From the IMG/VR virus record IMGVR_UViG_3300025769_000861, positions 1 to 23,539 of that record: 23,539 bases of DNA, one strand, 5' to 3'. Each line of letters starts with the position of its first letter. Within the stretch, counting starts at the first letter, position 1. The notes beneath the pieces are model-generated. The model had not been told where the DNA came from. It saw nothing but the letters and a program-made list of their open reading frames with translations, and searched no databases. The DNA is from a virus. The translations under genes were made by a program, and so were the position numbers. Positions 2-22,393 of the stretch are shown in pieces.

Positions 2-414
2 GAGTGGATCGACATGGAAACCTATCTCGCTGACTTTTGGCCTAACGCTCATAAAATTATGGCGATACTCTTCCGTCCTGTTACCTATGAATATAAAGAC
101 AAGTACGAAATAGAGAAGTACAACGCCAAAGAGGATGCTTCAGTTTTTGAAGGTGTACCCGCTGACTTAGTTTCGGGGACGTTGCTTTTTTTTTGGAATA
201 CCAGAAACGAACTGCTTCTCGATATGAAGTCCTCTTTACTGGAGGCGGCGAAAAAAGCGATCCAATCGGCGAAAAATGGGGATGGTATCACGTCCTCTAC
301 TCCCTCGCGGAAGGAAACCTCCTCAATATGGACAAGATTACGGAACTACCTGTCAACGTCGTTTTCCAACACCTCAGTTACCTAAAAGATAAGTCCGCAC
401 ATGATCACGTTTAA
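2..414 (+). CDS. Tail assembly chaperone-like protein, joined by a probable -1 frameshift; 5' partial
   Basis: Two overlapping frames look like one product. Frame 2 is open from the window edge and has an ATG at 14. It reads convincingly up to about 256 (motifs FRPVTYEY and LLFFWNTRNELL), then turns Ser/Thr-rich and stops at 383-385. Frame 1 becomes protein-like just there (GEKWGWYHVLYSLAEGN, then LSYLKDK) and stops at 412-414. Slipping back one base on the A6 run at 251-256 joins them as EAAKK-SDPIGEKWGWYH. Both halves resemble small proteins I recall from Bacteroidota phage tail clusters. A short/long pair made by frameshifting is typical of lambda gpG/gpGT tail chaperones. Residues before Met14 (EWID) suggest the true start is outside the window. 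The gene overlaps the next ORF by 14 nt. The frameshift could instead be a sequencing indel. The chaperone role is inferred. Confidence 0.6.
251..257 (+). promoter_or_regulatory. Candidate -1 ribosomal frameshift site (A6G)
   Basis: The heptamer AAAAAAG lies where coding character moves from frame 2 to frame 1. In the incoming frame the codons are AAA (251-253) AAA (254-256) GCG, so this is not the canonical X XXY YYZ phasing. A Lys-tRNA on 254-256 can still re-pair perfectly one base back on 253-255. A weak 4-bp hairpin (CGAT/ATCG, loop CCA) follows at 258-268. No strong stimulator is visible. Confidence 0.45.
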
Positions 415-3400
415 TAACATCGTCGAACGCTTCGAGATATTCGCGGAGAATCATTTCTTCATCCAGACCTTTTCTTTCGGTTCTCCCGATGATGTAGACC
501 TCACTAAGTTTACCAACTTCCCGCTTATGCACCTCGTTTATACGGGTGCCACATACGACGCGGGGACGAAGACCTACAACCTCGAGGTGTATATCTTGGA
601 CGTACCAGCCGACAAGAACCAAAAGGTAGAGAGACAAAAAGAAGTGGTCTCCGACGCGGAACAATGCGCGGAAGATATCATCGCCGACATTAAGAACGGA
701 GGGAATATCTTTCTGTTTGCACAAGATTACGAGGTAGTAAACGCCACGACGACACCACTTGAAGAAGAGACAAAGAACGTACTTAGCGGAGTTCTCTTAG
801 ACTTATCGGTCGCTATCCCTTACGAGTGGGACGCTTGTAATGCACCTATCGACGGAGTAGAACCAGGAGGTACGGAAGTAACTTACGCGCGTCGCGGGGT
901 GCTTCGTATGCTTACCCTTGACGGAGCGACTGACGTTCCATCCGTTCGAACTATCAAGGTAACCAACGGCACGCTAACAGATAACGGGGACGGCGTAGTT
1001 ACTTTAGATACGGGAGGAGTGGATACGCTTGCGGGCTTGACTGATGTAGACGTGACCGGAGTAACTGACGGGCAAGTGTTGAAGTATGACGACGCTTCGG
1101 GCGAATGGCTACCGGGTAACGATCAAAGCGCGACGAGCCTCGGAAACCTCGACGACGTTTCGCTCGTCACTCCCGCTAACCGTGAATCCCTCATATACGA
1201 CGGCGATAACTGGGTAAATGATAACGTAACGAAGGCAGACGTTGGACTCGGGAATGTAGAAAATACCAGCGACGCAGATAAGCCCGTCTCTACGGCTACG
1301 CAGACGGCACTTAATTTAAAAGCAAATACCGCCGACGTACCGACCGAGCTCAACGACTTGAGCGATGTATCTCTTACGACTCCGACGGCGAATCAAGCAC
1401 TCATATATAACACGGCGGCGAGTGCTTTCCAAGCCTTGCCTAGTTATACGAACCGCTTCCAAGACGAAGCCGAACAGGCATCGAATACAGCGGTAACGGG
1501 AACCACGTTATTTATTGAGCGTTATTATTCAGCGAAGGCAGACGGCGACGGGATCTTCATAGACGCACAAAGCGACACGCCCAGCGCGGGAAAAAAGATT
1601 GAACGAAAGATTTATCAAATCGCCGGGGGACTCGATGATTCTACCATTACGGGATGGACGTTAATTCATACGTTCGCAGATGATACCGCTTATTCTGCCA
1701 CGACGAGTACATTCGAAGGATTTAGAGACGGCGATACTTACGGAACGCCTCCTTTCTCTTTGGCGCAAACGTGGGAGGAGGTAACATCCGCGCCCTCCTT
1801 TACGGGTCTCTTAAATGAGAGCTACGGAAGCGGAGCGGAGGCGGCGTACTCCACCCGTCGATTGAATGGAAATTACTCAGGCGATTGTATGACCATTCGC
1901 AGAGCGTCGGACGGCACAACGCAAAGCATTGGATTCGTAGGGGAAGAAATTGATGAATCCGCCATCGAGACCTTTTGCACGGGCACAACGTGCACGGTTC
2001 AAGTTTGGCGCGACCAGTCGGGAAATGGTTACGACGCAACCCAAACCACGGCAGCGAATCAACCCACTATTTACACGGGCGGACAGCTTGTGAAGGATGG
2101 CGGGCGTTTGGCGGTTAATTTTGATGGCAGCAATGATTTTTATAACACATCATTGAATCAAGGCACTTTAACAGGATTTTTCTACACTGCTGTTGTCGCG
2201 CCAACAACAACAACGGCTCTGCAATCAATAGTAGATTTACGCGACGCAAATGATGATGGCACGCGAATGCTATTTATTAATGATGGAAGAGTATTTACAA
2301 GTACCGACGCGGCAGATGCATCGGCAAATTACGCGGCTACTCAACAAATCGTAACGGGAGAATACGACGGAACAAATTTAACAACTTACATTGATGGAGT
2401 AGGCGGGACATCTGTTAGCGGAACAAACACAACAGCAACCGCCAACGCTTTAATTGGAGTTCAATTAGGTGCTTCATCGTTCCATATGAACGGCACGATG
2501 CAAGAACTAATAATGTACTTCACTGACAAATCTGCTAACCGAACAGACATCGAAGGCAATATCTCCGCGTACTTCCAAAGCGCGAAACTCTTAGATGAAC
2601 AATTCGGAGAGGGTGCAGAAGCGGCTTACTCGACTCGCCAACTGCGACGGGATCAAACAGACTGCATGGTTATTCGCAGGGCATCGGATTCGACGACTCA
2701 AACCATAGGCTTTGACTCAAACGGCAATATCGACGAGGCAGCCATTGAAACCTTCTGTTCGGGCACTACGTGCACGGTGTATCAATGGCTTGACCAATCA
2801 GGAAACGGGAACACAGCGACGGCACCGAGTACGGGAGACGAACCGACGATTTACACAGGTGGCGCGTTGGTGAAGGAGAACGGGAAAGTGGCGGTAAATT
2901 ATGGCACGGCCTCGGATAGTTATTATTTGGAGCTTGCTTCATATACATCGCTGAGCTATCAATCTATTTCCACAATTACCGTCGGCTCAAATTCTAAAGC
3001 TTTTAATGCAGAAGGAAGTATTTCGTTTACGATGTTAGGACTTAATACTTCGCCGCGTTATTATCAGAACATAGGGTTAACGGGTGGTCTTTATTTTTCA
3101 TATGACGCGTTAGAAGCTATACAGCTATCAAGCACGTCGCAAAACTCTCAATATCTAAGCACGGTTTACGCTAACAATTCCACCGCGTCCGCTTATTTCA
3201 ACGGAACGAGTAAAGGCAGCGTTACAAGCGTGTCGGGAAATTCGGCTTATATAGCTTTAGGGTATAACGGTGGGACTTCATACCATAACGGAAATATTCA
3301 AGAAATTATTCTTTACGGTACAGACAAATCCAGCGACCGCACCTCTATCGAATCCAACATCGGCGACTACTTCACCCAAAACACGCCACTCCTCGACACG

Positions 3401-4198
3401 TACTCAGGGGCGGCGGCTGCTTATTCACTTCGCAAGCTATCAAGTTCGTACAGTGGAAGCGCGGTAGAAGTTTACAACGGCTCGAGTTATGCGGACATCG
3501 GCTTCAACGTATTCGGCGAATTGGATACGGTTGCACTTGCGGCGCATTGCGGAAGTAACGACGGGTTCGTAAGTACTTGGTACGACCAAGCAGGCTCGAA
3601 CGACGCCACGCAAACGACTACTGCGAGTATGCCGAAGATTTACGACGGGACGACGGGCGTGATTACGGAGAACGGGAAGCCTGCGGTGAATTTTGACGGT
3701 AGTGATGACTTCTTAGAGGATGTAAGTAAATCGGCATCACTTACTGGACATACGTTGATTACTGTTGTGAAAACAAACACGACAGCCGTAGAGCAAAGGT
3801 TCTTGTCCAATCCTAACGGAGGTGCAAATATTTTGAACCTATCGTCGGGAAATTATATGCTTCAAGATTATGAACTCTCGCCAACACTTCTAACACAAGC
3901 GACAATAAGCGCCGACACAACACAATCACTTTTGGTTGGCTCTATCAACTCAACTGATAAAATTGCAAAGATTTGGAAAAACGGAACTCAAGGAACAAAT
4001 GGAGCGACGTTGACCAAAACACTGCAACTTTTAAACACTGCTGAAACAGACATGAAAGTCGGGGCTAATCGAATTGCAAGCGCAAATTTTGTTGATGGTT
4101 ATATTCAAGAAATGATATATTACCCGACTGACCAAGACGACGCAGGCAACCGCACAGGCATCGAGGACAATATAAACACCTTTTATAGCATCTACTGA
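401..4198 (+). CDS. Tail fibre / receptor-binding protein with three tandem concanavalin-like modules
   Basis: This 1265-residue protein is mosaic. Residues 1 to about 165 (starting MITFNNIVERFEIFAENH, ending AIPYEWDACNAP) match a stand-alone virion protein family I recall from Bacteroidota phages. A beta-rich linker follows, with motifs TLTDNGDGVVTLD and GQVLKYDDASGEW, and then the common fibre motif VGLGNVENTSDADKP near residues 280-300. From about residue 470 there are three tandem modules of some 260-270 residues. Each opens with AYSxRxL and contains an IGF...DxxAxxxxC segment, W.DQSGNGxDAT or a variant, and VNFDGSxDF or a variant. This pattern belongs to the concanavalin A/laminin-G-like fold seen near arabinofuranosidase-B-type domains. 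The role is presumably adhesion to a surface glycan. The N-terminal domain would attach it to the tail. Its stop overlaps the next ATG by one base. Confidence 0.8.
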   Translation: MITFNNIVERFEIFAENHFFIQTFSFGSPDDVDLTKFTNFPLMHLVYTGATYDAGTKTYNLEVYILDVPADKNQKVERQKEVVSDAEQCAEDIIADIKNGGNIFLFAQDYEVVNATTTPLEEETKNVLSGVLLDLSVAIPYEWDACNAPIDGVEPGGTEVTYARRGVLRMLTLDGATDVPSVRTIKVTNGTLTDNGDGVVTLDTGGVDTLAGLTDVDVTGVTDGQVLKYDDASGEWLPGNDQSATSLGNLDDVSLVTPANRESLIYDGDNWVNDNVTKADVGLGNVENTSDADKPVSTATQTALNLKANTADVPTELNDLSDVSLTTPTANQALIYNTAASAFQALPSYTNRFQDEAEQASNTAVTGTTLFIERYYSAKADGDGIFIDAQSDTPSAGKKIERKIYQIAGGLDDSTITGWTLIHTFADDTAYSATTSTFEGFRDGDTYGTPPFSLAQTWEEVTSAPSFTGLLNESYGSGAEAAYSTRRLNGNYSGDCMTIRRASDGTTQSIGFVGEEIDESAIETFCTGTTCTVQVWRDQSGNGYDATQTTAANQPTIYTGGQLVKDGGRLAVNFDGSNDFYNTSLNQGTLTGFFYTAVVAPTTTTALQSIVDLRDANDDGTRMLFINDGRVFTSTDAADASANYAATQQIVTGEYDGTNLTTYIDGVGGTSVSGTNTTATANALIGVQLGASSFHMNGTMQELIMYFTDKSANRTDIEGNISAYFQSAKLLDEQFGEGAEAAYSTRQLRRDQTDCMVIRRASDSTTQTIGFDSNGNIDEAAIETFCSGTTCTVYQWLDQSGNGNTATAPSTGDEPTIYTGGALVKENGKVAVNYGTASDSYYLELASYTSLSYQSISTITVGSNSKAFNAEGSISFTMLGLNTSPRYYQNIGLTGGLYFSYDALEAIQLSSTSQNSQYLSTVYANNSTASAYFNGTSKGSVTSVSGNSAYIALGYNGGTSYHNGNIQEIILYGTDKSSDRTSIESNIGDYFTQNTPLLDTYSGAAAAYSLRKLSSSYSGSAVEVYNGSSYADIGFNVFGELDTVALAAHCGSNDGFVSTWYDQAGSNDATQTTTASMPKIYDGTTGVITENGKPAVNFDGSDDFLEDVSKSASLTGHTLITVVKTNTTAVEQRFLSNPNGGANILNLSSGNYMLQDYELSPTLLTQATISADTTQSLLVGSINSTDKIAKIWKNGTQGTNGATLTKTLQLLNTAETDMKVGANRIASANFVDGYIQEMIYYPTDQDDAGNRTGIEDNINTFYSIY
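1807..4195 (+). repeat. Three tandem lectin-like modules within the fibre gene
   Basis: The modules span roughly 1807-2587, 2588-3388 and 3389-4195. Each starts with a conserved segment (AYSTRRL, AYSTRQL, AYSLRKL, later YDQ or DQSG and a VNFDGS-like stretch) and ends with a divergent core closing in a DR/NR-T-IE-NI motif (residues near 715, 980 and 1250). Modules 1 and 2 share Cys pairs (DCM...FCTGTTC, DCM...FCSGTTC); module 3 has mostly lost them. The heads are GC-rich and the cores AT-rich. The pattern suggests duplication followed by exchange of cores. Confidence 0.8.
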
Positions 4199-20407: not shown

Positions 20408-21088
20408 ATGGACAGAGAATTCAAAGGGGTATGGATCGACCGAGATATTTGGTTGAACCCTGACCTTTCACTTATTGAAAAGGCTTTACTAGCTGAAATC
20501 GATTCATTTACTGGAGACGGAAAGAGCTTCTATAAATCAAACGAAACCATTCAAGAAGAGTACAAGATTTCAAGACCAACGATTTCCAGAGCGTTGAAAA
20601 AACTTGAGGGGCTTGGTTTCATAAAAATCGAATTCGATGGACGCATGAGGAAAGTAACTTATCAGGCAGACCGTAAAATATTTACGGGCAGACCGAAAAA
20701 AATGATCGGGCAGGGGGAAAAAAATGATCGGGCAGACCGATCAAATGATACCTCTATTAATACAATTAAAGAACAAGTTAAAGAACAATCTAAAAAAGAA
20801 CAGGAGATTCACCTTCCTTGGGATTCAAAAACCTTTTATCATATTTGGAGCGAATGGAAAGAAGACCGCAAAGAACGAAAAATCAAAAACTACACTACTC
20901 GCGGTGAACTCGCCGCGCTTCACAAACTATACAACGAAACAAATGGAAACGAACAACACGCAATCGAAGCAATCCAACAAGCTATCGCGAACCAGTGGCA
21001 AGGAATATTCCCTCGAGCAAAGAAGGCAGATCCAAAGCCTCCAGACCGAGAACAGCTTGAACGCTATCTCCGCACCGGGTCTCTTTAA
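20408..21088 (+). CDS. Replication initiator-like winged-helix protein
   Basis: The product has 226 residues. Residues about 1-80 form a winged helix (LSLIEKALLAEIDSF, then NETIQEEYKISRPTISRALK and KLEGLGFIKIEF). A disordered polar linker follows (about 86-140). The C-terminal domain (about 140-215, FYHIWSEWKEDRKERK, a LAALHKLYNETNGNEQHAIE helix, NQWQGIFP) looks like a helicase-loader-type tail. The layout resembles lambda O-type initiators and DnaD-like proteins. The linker region of the gene holds four tandem 22-bp repeats plus an A+T-rich run, so it probably also carries the origin. It starts 12 nt after the terminator, so its own promoter would lie upstream, or read-through is needed. Confidence 0.7.
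   Translation: MDREFKGVWIDRDIWLNPDLSLIEKALLAEIDSFTGDGKSFYKSNETIQEEYKISRPTISRALKKLEGLGFIKIEFDGRMRKVTYQADRKIFTGRPKKMIGQGEKNDRADRSNDTSINTIKEQVKEQSKKEQEIHLPWDSKTFYHIWSEWKEDRKERKIKNYTTRGELAALHKLYNETNGNEQHAIEAIQQAIANQWQGIFPRAKKADPKPPDREQLERYLRTGSL
20664..20751 (+). repeat. Four tandem 22-bp repeats: candidate origin iterons
   Basis: Units start at 20664, 20686, 20708 and 20730, each exactly 22 nt. All carry a GGCAG core. Units 1, 2 and 4 extend it to GGCAGACCG, and unit 3 has GGGG in place of ACCG. Units 2 and 3 share an 18-nt identity (seven A then TGATCGGGCAG). Unit 1 has TAAAATATTTAC instead. Since 22 is not a multiple of three, the encoded peptide is not repeated. Confidence 0.8.
20752..20800 (+). 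other. A+T-rich stretch next to the repeats, candidate DNA unwinding element
   Basis: 39 of 49 bases are A or T by hand count. It contains two copies of TTAAAGAACAA at 20766-20776 and 20778-20788 (period 12, so partly explained by the IKEQVKEQ peptide repeat). Its position directly after the repeats matches the layout of phage origins. Confidence 0.55.
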
Positions 21089-21572
21089 GTACACGCCCGA
21101 AGAGGCTTGGCACGAAGGAACAAACATAAAGACCGCGCTTCGATGTTATCCGGAAAAGACGCGAACCGAAATAATAGAGCTCATTAAAAAGACGGTTGAT
21201 TTCATCGACGCAAAGAAGACGCTCCATAGCTTCGAAGATGTAGCCCTCTGCGCTGAGATGATATTCGAGGTTTTCCCCGTTTTGAAATTGGAAGAGTTTA
21301 GATTAGTTTGCGACCGAATGAAGCAAGGGCATTACGGCAAGTTCTACGAACGTCTCAAGATTCAAGAATTTAGAGAGTGCTTAATCAAGCACGAAGAGGA
21401 ACGCGCCCCGATACTCGAGCGACAACATCAACAAGTTTTAAGAGGAACGGACGATCCAACGAACGTCCCACAATACGACGCAGAAGCGGCAAAGCTCGCT
21501 TGGAGACTTAAGAACAATCCTTTTTTGATACCTGGAAAGAATGGGAATAGCGAAGACGAAAGCGAAACTTGA
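20943..21572 (+). CDS. Hypothetical protein of the replication region; start uncertain
   Basis: Downstream of about 21080 the frame is clearly coding: FKYTPEEAWHEGTNIKTALR, FIDAKKTLHSFEDVAL, FRLVCDRMKQGHYGKFYERL and KHEEERAPILER. I recall similar helical proteins after replication initiators in Bacteroidota phages; function is unknown. The start is unclear. An ATG at 20943 would overlap the initiator gene by 146 nt and gives 209 residues. A TTG at 21057 gives 172 residues and a 32-nt overlap. The frame upstream of 20943 is a shadow of the initiator. The protein ends in an overlap with the NinG-like gene. Confidence 0.65.
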   Translation: METNNTQSKQSNKLSRTSGKEYSLEQRRQIQSLQTENSLNAISAPGLFKYTPEEAWHEGTNIKTALRCYPEKTRTEIIELIKKTVDFIDAKKTLHSFEDVALCAEMIFEVFPVLKLEEFRLVCDRMKQGHYGKFYERLKIQEFRECLIKHEEERAPILERQHQQVLRGTDDPTNVPQYDAEAAKLAWRLKNNPFLIPGKNGNSEDESET

Positions 21573-21939
21573 TTCTATCTTTTCTCAATTCATTCGCCTT
21601 CGTGGGTGTAACGAAGAAGGGTGGGGAGAGTGCTTCACTTGCGGACGCTTACGGCACTGGAAAGAAGTAGATTGTGGGCACTTCATCACGCGGGCAAAAT
21701 TAGCGACTCGTTGGCTCGAAGAGAACTGTCAGTTCCAATGTAAACAGTGTAACATGAACGGCGGGCAACAATACGTCTTTGGAAAGAATCTAGATGCGCA
21801 ATATGGAGAAGGAACGGCGGAGAGGATTCTTCTTGAAAGCAACCAAAATAAGAAATGGACGGTCGCAGAGTTAGAAGAGAAGGTTCGTTACTATCGTCAA
21901 AAGGTCAATGAAATTAAAGCACAAAGAGGACTGGAATGA
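21541..21939 (+). CDS. NinG/Rap-like recombination protein
   Basis: The product has 132 residues. The order LDSIFSQFIRLR, CFTCGR (Cys31, Cys34), DCGHFITR (Cys45, His47), TRWLEENCQFQCKQCN (Cys67, Cys70) and QYVFG is the NinG/Rap pattern of lambda: a treble-clef-like zinc site with an HNH-related fold. Rap cleaves Holliday junctions and recombination intermediates. The basic helices at the C-terminus (about 110-130) fit DNA binding. It overlaps both neighbours. Confidence 0.75.
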   Translation: MGIAKTKAKLDSIFSQFIRLRGCNEEGWGECFTCGRLRHWKEVDCGHFITRAKLATRWLEENCQFQCKQCNMNGGQQYVFGKNLDAQYGEGTAERILLESNQNKKWTVAELEEKVRYYRQKVNEIKAQRGLE

Positions 21940-22393
21940 GTTCTTGACAAAGAACTATTCAAAACTCGTTCGTATCGCGAAGCGGTGGACGGACGATCCT
22001 TCCGACCTTGTGCACCATGTTTATTTGAGATGCATCGACAAACGATTCCCGAACAAAGAAGGTGAGACGGCTATGGGATACTTTGTGAAGGCGATGTACT
22101 TCGAAGCGACAAGAGGACAATTCAAAGAAATCTATAAAATAATTGATCAAGAACCCGATGAAGCAACAACCGAAAACGATTGGACAAAAGCCGTCCGACG
22201 GGAACAAATGCAACTCGTCCTCGACCGTCTCTCCTGGTTCGATAGAACGCTGTTCTCTCTGTACTTGCAAGGATGGAATATGGCTGACTTATCTCGACGG
22301 TCTGGGATTGGAGAATCAACCCTATATCGCTCACTACACATCACCCGAAAAACCTTAAAAGATGTTCTTCGTAACAGGGCAAAAGCGGACTGA
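21908..22393 (+). CDS. Sigma-70-like (ECF-type) factor
   Basis: The product has 161 residues. Residues about 8-75 resemble sigma region 2 (LTKNYSKLVRIAKRW, DPSDLVHHVYLRC, GYFVKAMYFEATRG). Residues about 100-155 carry a region 4 HTH (LDRLSWFDRTLFSLYLQGWN, MADLSRRSGIGESTLYRSLH). The size equals an ECF sigma factor. It may redirect host RNA polymerase to late genes. It could also be a small regulator without promoter recognition. It overlaps NinG and the next gene. Confidence 0.65.
   Translation: MKLKHKEDWNEFLTKNYSKLVRIAKRWTDDPSDLVHHVYLRCIDKRFPNKEGETAMGYFVKAMYFEATRGQFKEIYKIIDQEPDEATTENDWTKAVRREQMQLVLDRLSWFDRTLFSLYLQGWNMADLSRRSGIGESTLYRSLHITRKTLKDVLRNRAKAD

Follow-up and report, generated by a model that had tools for sequence, protein, structure and literature searches.

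A probable lambda-type replication origin inside the initiator gene of a phage fragment

Does a phage replication initiator gene carry, within its own coding sequence, the site at which its product starts replication? The question is raised by the IMG/VR virus fragment IMGVR_UViG_3300025769_000861 (23,539 bases; hereafter the window), for which a candidate in-gene origin had been proposed from the DNA letters. The gene concerned lies at 20408..21088 on the plus strand and encodes a protein of 226 aa with a winged-helix N-domain, a disordered linker and a helical C-domain, as assigned by PHROG, Pfam and AlphaFold2 (AF2). The protein matches the replication-initiation PHROGs 678 (O-like, E 2.6e-15), 270, 428 and 186 (DnaD-like), and Pfam HTH_36 above the cut-off; the O-like matches agree with the original prediction that this is a replication initiator gene. 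An AF2 model was built from 31 homologues and used for the domain layout only (mean pLDDT 67, pTM 0.34). The model placed the winged helix at approximately residues 12-85 and the helical domain at 141-195, with pLDDT >80. Residues 88-132 had pLDDT <50 and form a predicted disordered linker, encoded by nt 20669-20803 and nearly coincident with the iterons and A+T-rich run described below.

Iterons, dyads and the A+T-rich run

The sequence, Tandem Repeats Finder (TRF) and shuffle statistics revealed four tandem 22-bp iterons, arranged head-to-tail at 20664..20751 on the plus strand. The units occupy 20664-20685, 20686-20707, 20708-20729 and 20730-20751, and the first bases of their GGCAG cores are at 20665, 20687, 20709 and 20731. 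TRF reported a period of 22, 3.6 copies, 75% matches and zero indels, bearing out the claim of four units of exactly 22 nt with GGCAG cores in the linker of a winged-helix gene. The array begins 257 bases into the initiator gene, a mid-gene position. Units 2 and 3 are almost identical and contain the A7 tracts that had been noticed earlier; units 1 and 4 are divergent. A scan of the window for further iteron copies or a second origin found no comparable ones elsewhere, and an Rfam search gave no match. Cumulative GC skew across the 23,539-base fragment had no turn at the array, the fragment being too partial for the skew to inform.

Each unit is built as an arm of 7 bp, 3 bp, a second arm of 7 bp and 5 bp (GCAGA), giving a 7-3-7 bp dyad. 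The array is better described as three full 17-bp dyads followed by a left half-site at 20737-20743. From the sequence and from statistics on 117 units, the arms are perfect in dyad 1 (CCGTAAA-ATA-TTTACGG, 20671..20687), partly matched in dyad 2 (CCGAAAA-AAA-TGATCGG, 20693..20709) and weak in dyad 3 (GGGAAAA-AAA-TGATCGG, 20715..20731). Perfect 7-bp arms also flank a core in TGATCGG-GCAGA-CCGATCA (20725..20743), the right arm of which is the terminal half-site of the array; neither this feature nor the dyads are assigned a strand. Arm complementarity was 75% in 117 pooled full units compared to a mean of 45% after exchange of the right arms (maximum 53% in 500 trials), so the arms change together between classes. 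The arm pairs by class are CCGTAAA/TTTACGG, TCCCCA/TGGGGA, TCGCCA/TGACGG and GGTCA/TGACC. Within classes the excess was small (0.75 vs 0.71, maximum 0.74). When tested gene by gene, dyad symmetry was significant in the window (0/100) and not in every class, and it is therefore claimed for pooled units only. Inverted-repeat iterons, a trait of lambda-type origins, are accordingly found on the pooled units, unit 3 of the window being weak.

The iterons are followed on the plus strand by an A+T-rich run at 20752..20800, presumed from its composition to be an unwinding element, with codon-level constraint extending to 20797. The predicted composition of this 49-nt run, 39/49 A/T, was recovered exactly. 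The run contains a conserved ATTAATACA element adjoining the last iteron (20756..20764, plus strand), defined by homologue comparison with motif and codon counts. Three 12-mers, AATACAATTAAA, GAACAAGTTAAA and GAACAATCTAAA, lie at 20759..20794 on the same strand (individually 20759-20770, 20771-20782 and 20783-20794) and were detected by TRF at period 12 and by lag 12 in homologues; the conserved TAATACA heads these repeats. An A+T element directly beside the iterons is a second lambda-type trait present here, its unwinding role being presumed.

Constraint on the DNA in homologous genes

Homologues were fetched using peptide patterns located outside the array, and persistence of the repeats was therefore not built into the sample. 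Among 62 distinct, sufficiently long homologous genes, the best lag was 22 in 57, 12 in four and 25 in one. The 22-bp period persisted in homologues at 40-50% identity while the sequence of the unit changed. From a codon alignment of 53 genes, the 32 with <90% mutual identity were compared. Where two sequences shared an amino acid, the probability that they also shared its codon was 0.75-0.93 over nt 20663-20797, compared to 0.31-0.56 across the N-domain and 0.40-0.60 over most of the C-domain. A smaller second rise at ~21050-21070, at the 3' end, is consistent with the next gene, whose start at 21057 overlaps the initiator gene. Gene length varied with unit number in steps of 22 bp plus 1-2 bases, which preserves the reading frame (24 nt between the four-core class A and shorter classes; 45 nt between homologues L091 and L088), as would be expected if the DNA period rather than the peptide is kept. 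The alignment of homologues had been put forward with the original prediction as a check. The repeats were not lacking and were conserved as DNA at the codon level, with peptide and unit sequence drifting, in line with the claim that conservation acts on DNA over peptide. In a distant relative (L097, 4278-4402; 32% identity), 25-bp dyad units (GTCGTGACCCC...TCACGACA) take the place of the 22-bp ones at the same location.

Linker-coding DNA readily gains tandem repeats, and the array might be a product of chance or of neutral tandem duplication. The best 44-base self-match of the initiator gene at lag 22 was 36. Synonymous shuffles that kept the protein and the codon set gave a mean of 23.9 and a maximum of 32, with 0/1000 reaching 36, and codon-order shuffles reached at most 29 at any lag of 10-40. 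These results argue against chance, and the homologue comparison, with persistence at 40-50% identity and codon-level constraint, refutes it; we regard its probability as negligible. The repeat could also be due to constraint acting at the level of the peptide or the mRNA fold, and not on duplex DNA. The strand folds better than its shuffles (z -5.4), as would that of any dyad array. Against a peptide constraint, 22 is not a multiple of three and the linker is predicted to be disordered. The rise in codon conservation coincides exactly with the array and with the A+T run, which is unstructured, and unit sequence varies among classes while the period and dyads stay, making a constraint on either peptide or mRNA very improbable.

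The A+T element carries its own signs of constraint. Across homologues, lag 12 was the strongest short period in the A+T stretch, and in most of the distant relatives the element likewise begins with TAATACA-like repeats of 12 or 15 nt. In the GC-rich Pseudomonas-type group, Thr after Asn or Ser was coded by ACA in 56% of cases in the element compared to 6% elsewhere in the genes (Fisher p 1.6e-18); the same trend was seen in the other two groups, the three groups differing in base composition, and the p-values overstate independence, as the sequences are related. This ACA bias is a DNA-level constraint on the A+T element. Since the TAATACA-led 12- or 15-nt repeat is kept beside very different iterons and in distant hosts, it is conceivable, as a tentative suggestion, that the unwinding element is read by sequence and that one common factor recognises it, which could be either the initiator itself or host DnaA acting on single strands in the way it does at DnaA-trios. 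The conservation of TAATACA points to a possible sequence-specific unwinding step; if true, a sequence-read unwinding element and the pairing of helix and iteron described below would make up a modular, predictable phage-origin code. The initiator-gene linker of another homologue (L142) has an A+T element followed by seven TAG-type triplets (GTAGTAGTAGTAGTAGTAGTAG), a DnaA-trio-like run.

Iteron classes and the two protein domains

Four iteron classes, assigned by simple motif counts, pair with four recognition-helix types in 53/53 genes. The helix types are SRPT in class A, S(R/K)NT in class B, (A/T)(P/S)(R/K)T in class C and S(R/K)ST in class D. In the window, the recognition helix (SRPTISRALKKL, type A) comprises residues 55-66, encoded at 20570..20605 on the plus strand; it was placed by an AF2 helix at 56-69 and by the match to iteron class. 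Iteron distance correlated with N-domain distance when the C-domain was controlled for (partial r 0.57), but not with C-domain distance when the N-domain was controlled for (partial r 0.05). On an N-domain tree built with the recognition-helix residues removed, iteron class changed 3 times, the minimum for four classes, compared to 8 changes for two C-domain types. Coinheritance of N-domain and iteron type is partly linkage, the N-domain adjoining the array, yet the C-domain, at a similar distance beyond the array, undergoes free exchange. Because iteron class follows the N-domain and not the comparably close C-domain, the pattern lends support, as judged from sequence comparison, to the N-domain as the part that recognises the iterons. 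As each of the four natural iteron types has its own recognition-helix type, initiator specificity is testable by exchange.

The C-domain (window 20798-21088; homologues L011, L048, L069-L093) occurs in two forms that look unrelated, and these associate freely with iteron classes A, B and C. On the N-domain tree this shuffling amounts to at least 8 changes; it suggests a recombination junction immediately after the origin, and would mark where phage replication modules recombine.

Comparison with known origins and a proposed mechanism

In phage lambda, the central part of gene O contains four inverted-repeat iterons followed by an A+T tract, and Stx-phage relatives are alike (PMC7466680). The window has the same arrangement in the middle of its initiator gene. 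The annotated lambda iterons (ATCCCTCAAAACGAGGGA and relatives) are likewise built as arm-AAA-arm and are similar to class B of the window family, but they start 20, 24 and 23 bp apart, whereas the spacing in the window is exactly 22. PHROG 678 is common to lambda O and the window protein, although a direct profile comparison of the two gave nothing, and the Pfam model of the window initiator is HTH_36. Downstream, a gene for a NinG/Rap-like DNA-junction endonuclease (21541..21939, plus strand; PHROG 5034, E 3.6e-26; Pfam NinG) is part of a lambda-like gene order. No recognised helicase-loader gene (a lambda P relative) was found; the gene that follows the initiator (21057..21572, plus strand), which overlaps it, has a TTG start and matches DUF6633 below the Pfam cut-off only. 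Its start sits within the initiator gene in most relatives, and by position it is a helicase-loader candidate.

In the Bacillus phage SPP1, oriL lies in gene 38 and comprises direct repeats and an A+T unwinding element, bound by the gene product (PMC6316719). Direct repeats and an A+T element within an initiator gene are shared with the window; SPP1 differs in that it has another origin, oriR, besides oriL and that its loader and helicase genes (gp39/gp40) are known; no counterpart of these was recognised in the window fragment. The plasmid pSK41 has a proven in-gene origin of four Rep boxes placed centrally in rep and bound by the winged-helix N-domain of Rep, the origin encoding a linker that is followed by a separate C-domain (PMC5703833). 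The window shares with such RepA_N plasmids a winged-helix N-domain, central boxes, an origin-encoded linker and a separate C-domain. The linker is dispensable in pSK41-type initiators, and the likeness of the window linker lies in its central position and predicted disorder. Unlike these plasmids, the window holds a phage module, and its initiator had no sequence match to RepA_N (PF06970) in a Pfam scan at E up to 1. A natural chimera, pPR9, relies for replication on a phage-derived initiator whose HTH_36 N-domain is of phage type (PMC5703833). When folds were compared with VIA-align, the top rows for the N-domain, which included pSK41-type Rep, were 4pql, 4pt7, 5kbj and 4pta (Z 8.4-9.8), with a small margin of pSK41-type Rep over other winged helices. 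Plasmid initiators came on top with VIA-align only, Foldseek alone ranking generic winged helices, all at E 0.01 or above, and a sequence search of solved structures gave weak regulator hits only. The modelled match to pSK41-type Rep is a likeness of fold, not proof of descent.

Many winged-helix proteins of this fold are repressors, and dimeric regulators suit dyad-shaped sites; the array might accordingly be no origin but a set of operators, at which the protein would act as a transcriptional regulator of its own gene or of those that follow. However, the array is located within the gene, 257 bases in, and is always followed by the conserved A+T 12-mer element, and the homologous families are initiators with in-gene origins, making a purely regulatory array improbable, although operator and origin roles could coexist. 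Plasmid partition systems also have iteron arrays bound by winged-helix proteins, and TubR is among the fold matches, as would fit a segregation (centromere-like) site, or a DNA-packaging site, that fell by chance in an initiator gene. The ORF list, PHROG and Pfam revealed no adjacent partner NTPase gene, and the A+T 12-mer element and DnaD/O-like families point to initiation, leaving such a site highly unlikely.

Collectively, these results suggest that 20664-20797 is very probably a theta-type phage replication origin inside the coding sequence of its own initiator, of the lambda/SPP1-oriL type and bound by the N-domain of that protein. Both origin activity and protein binding are what we infer from the sequence comparisons; the original prediction of an in-gene origin is supported by repeats that persist at 22 bp, the O-like PHROG match and DNA-level constraint. 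Based on the anatomy of the array and on lambda, SPP1 and pSK41, the winged-helix N-domain would bind each 22-bp iteron, probably as two protomers on the arms of a dyad. Units spaced about two helical turns apart would stack the protein on one face of the DNA, with A-tract bending helping, and the stacked protein may then melt the adjoining A+T-rich 12-mers. Recruitment of the replicative helicase or primase would fall to the helical C-domain, possibly together with the product of the overlapping downstream gene. In-gene, lambda-like origins are already known as a kind; what the analysis adds is the comparative pattern and the conserved motif of the unwinding element. A textbook in-gene origin thereby becomes a comparative system, in which the pairing of protein and start site is directly testable.

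The arrangement is found well beyond the window. A further 91 distinct genes came from scans with three queries, two of them distant relatives; 77 of these genes had a significant in-gene period of 15-30 bp (65 at 22 or 23). A few of the patterns used in the scans lay in the linker, and the fraction of 77/91 may be slightly inflated. Among named phages, the in-gene units are 22 bp in Skulduggery, 22-23 in Cruim01, about 22 in LspM-01 and 23 in both GJ44 and IME1323_01. In these five, as in the window, the initiator gene contains units of 22-23 bp and then an A+T element, but their unit sequences are unrelated or nearly so to those of the window, and their C-domains and neighbouring genes differ. 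In phage HU1 the units are visible with a period that is not significant (6/100), Bacteroides phage C3_41T2LP has a short HTH gene with no array, and the 22-bp period was not significant in plasmid-borne relatives (pAT5, Paraclostridium). One scan of bacterial genomes found no relatives. Full-text searches of freely available literature yielded no paper on the origins of this initiator family, and the in-gene array is unannotated in the records examined, lambda excepted. In total, >100 metagenomic phage sequences showed the in-gene origin layout, as did named phages of Pseudomonas, Lysinibacillus, Oceanospirillum and Staphylococcus.

Two other regions of the window gave minor observations. Beside the replication genes, 21908-22393 has a weak match to the RNA polymerase sigma-factor PHROG 1740 (E 3.7e-6). 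At the other end, 401-4198 encodes a large tail-fibre or virion protein (PHROG 10356, 35419) with repeated segments of the type AYSTRxLxxxYSG.
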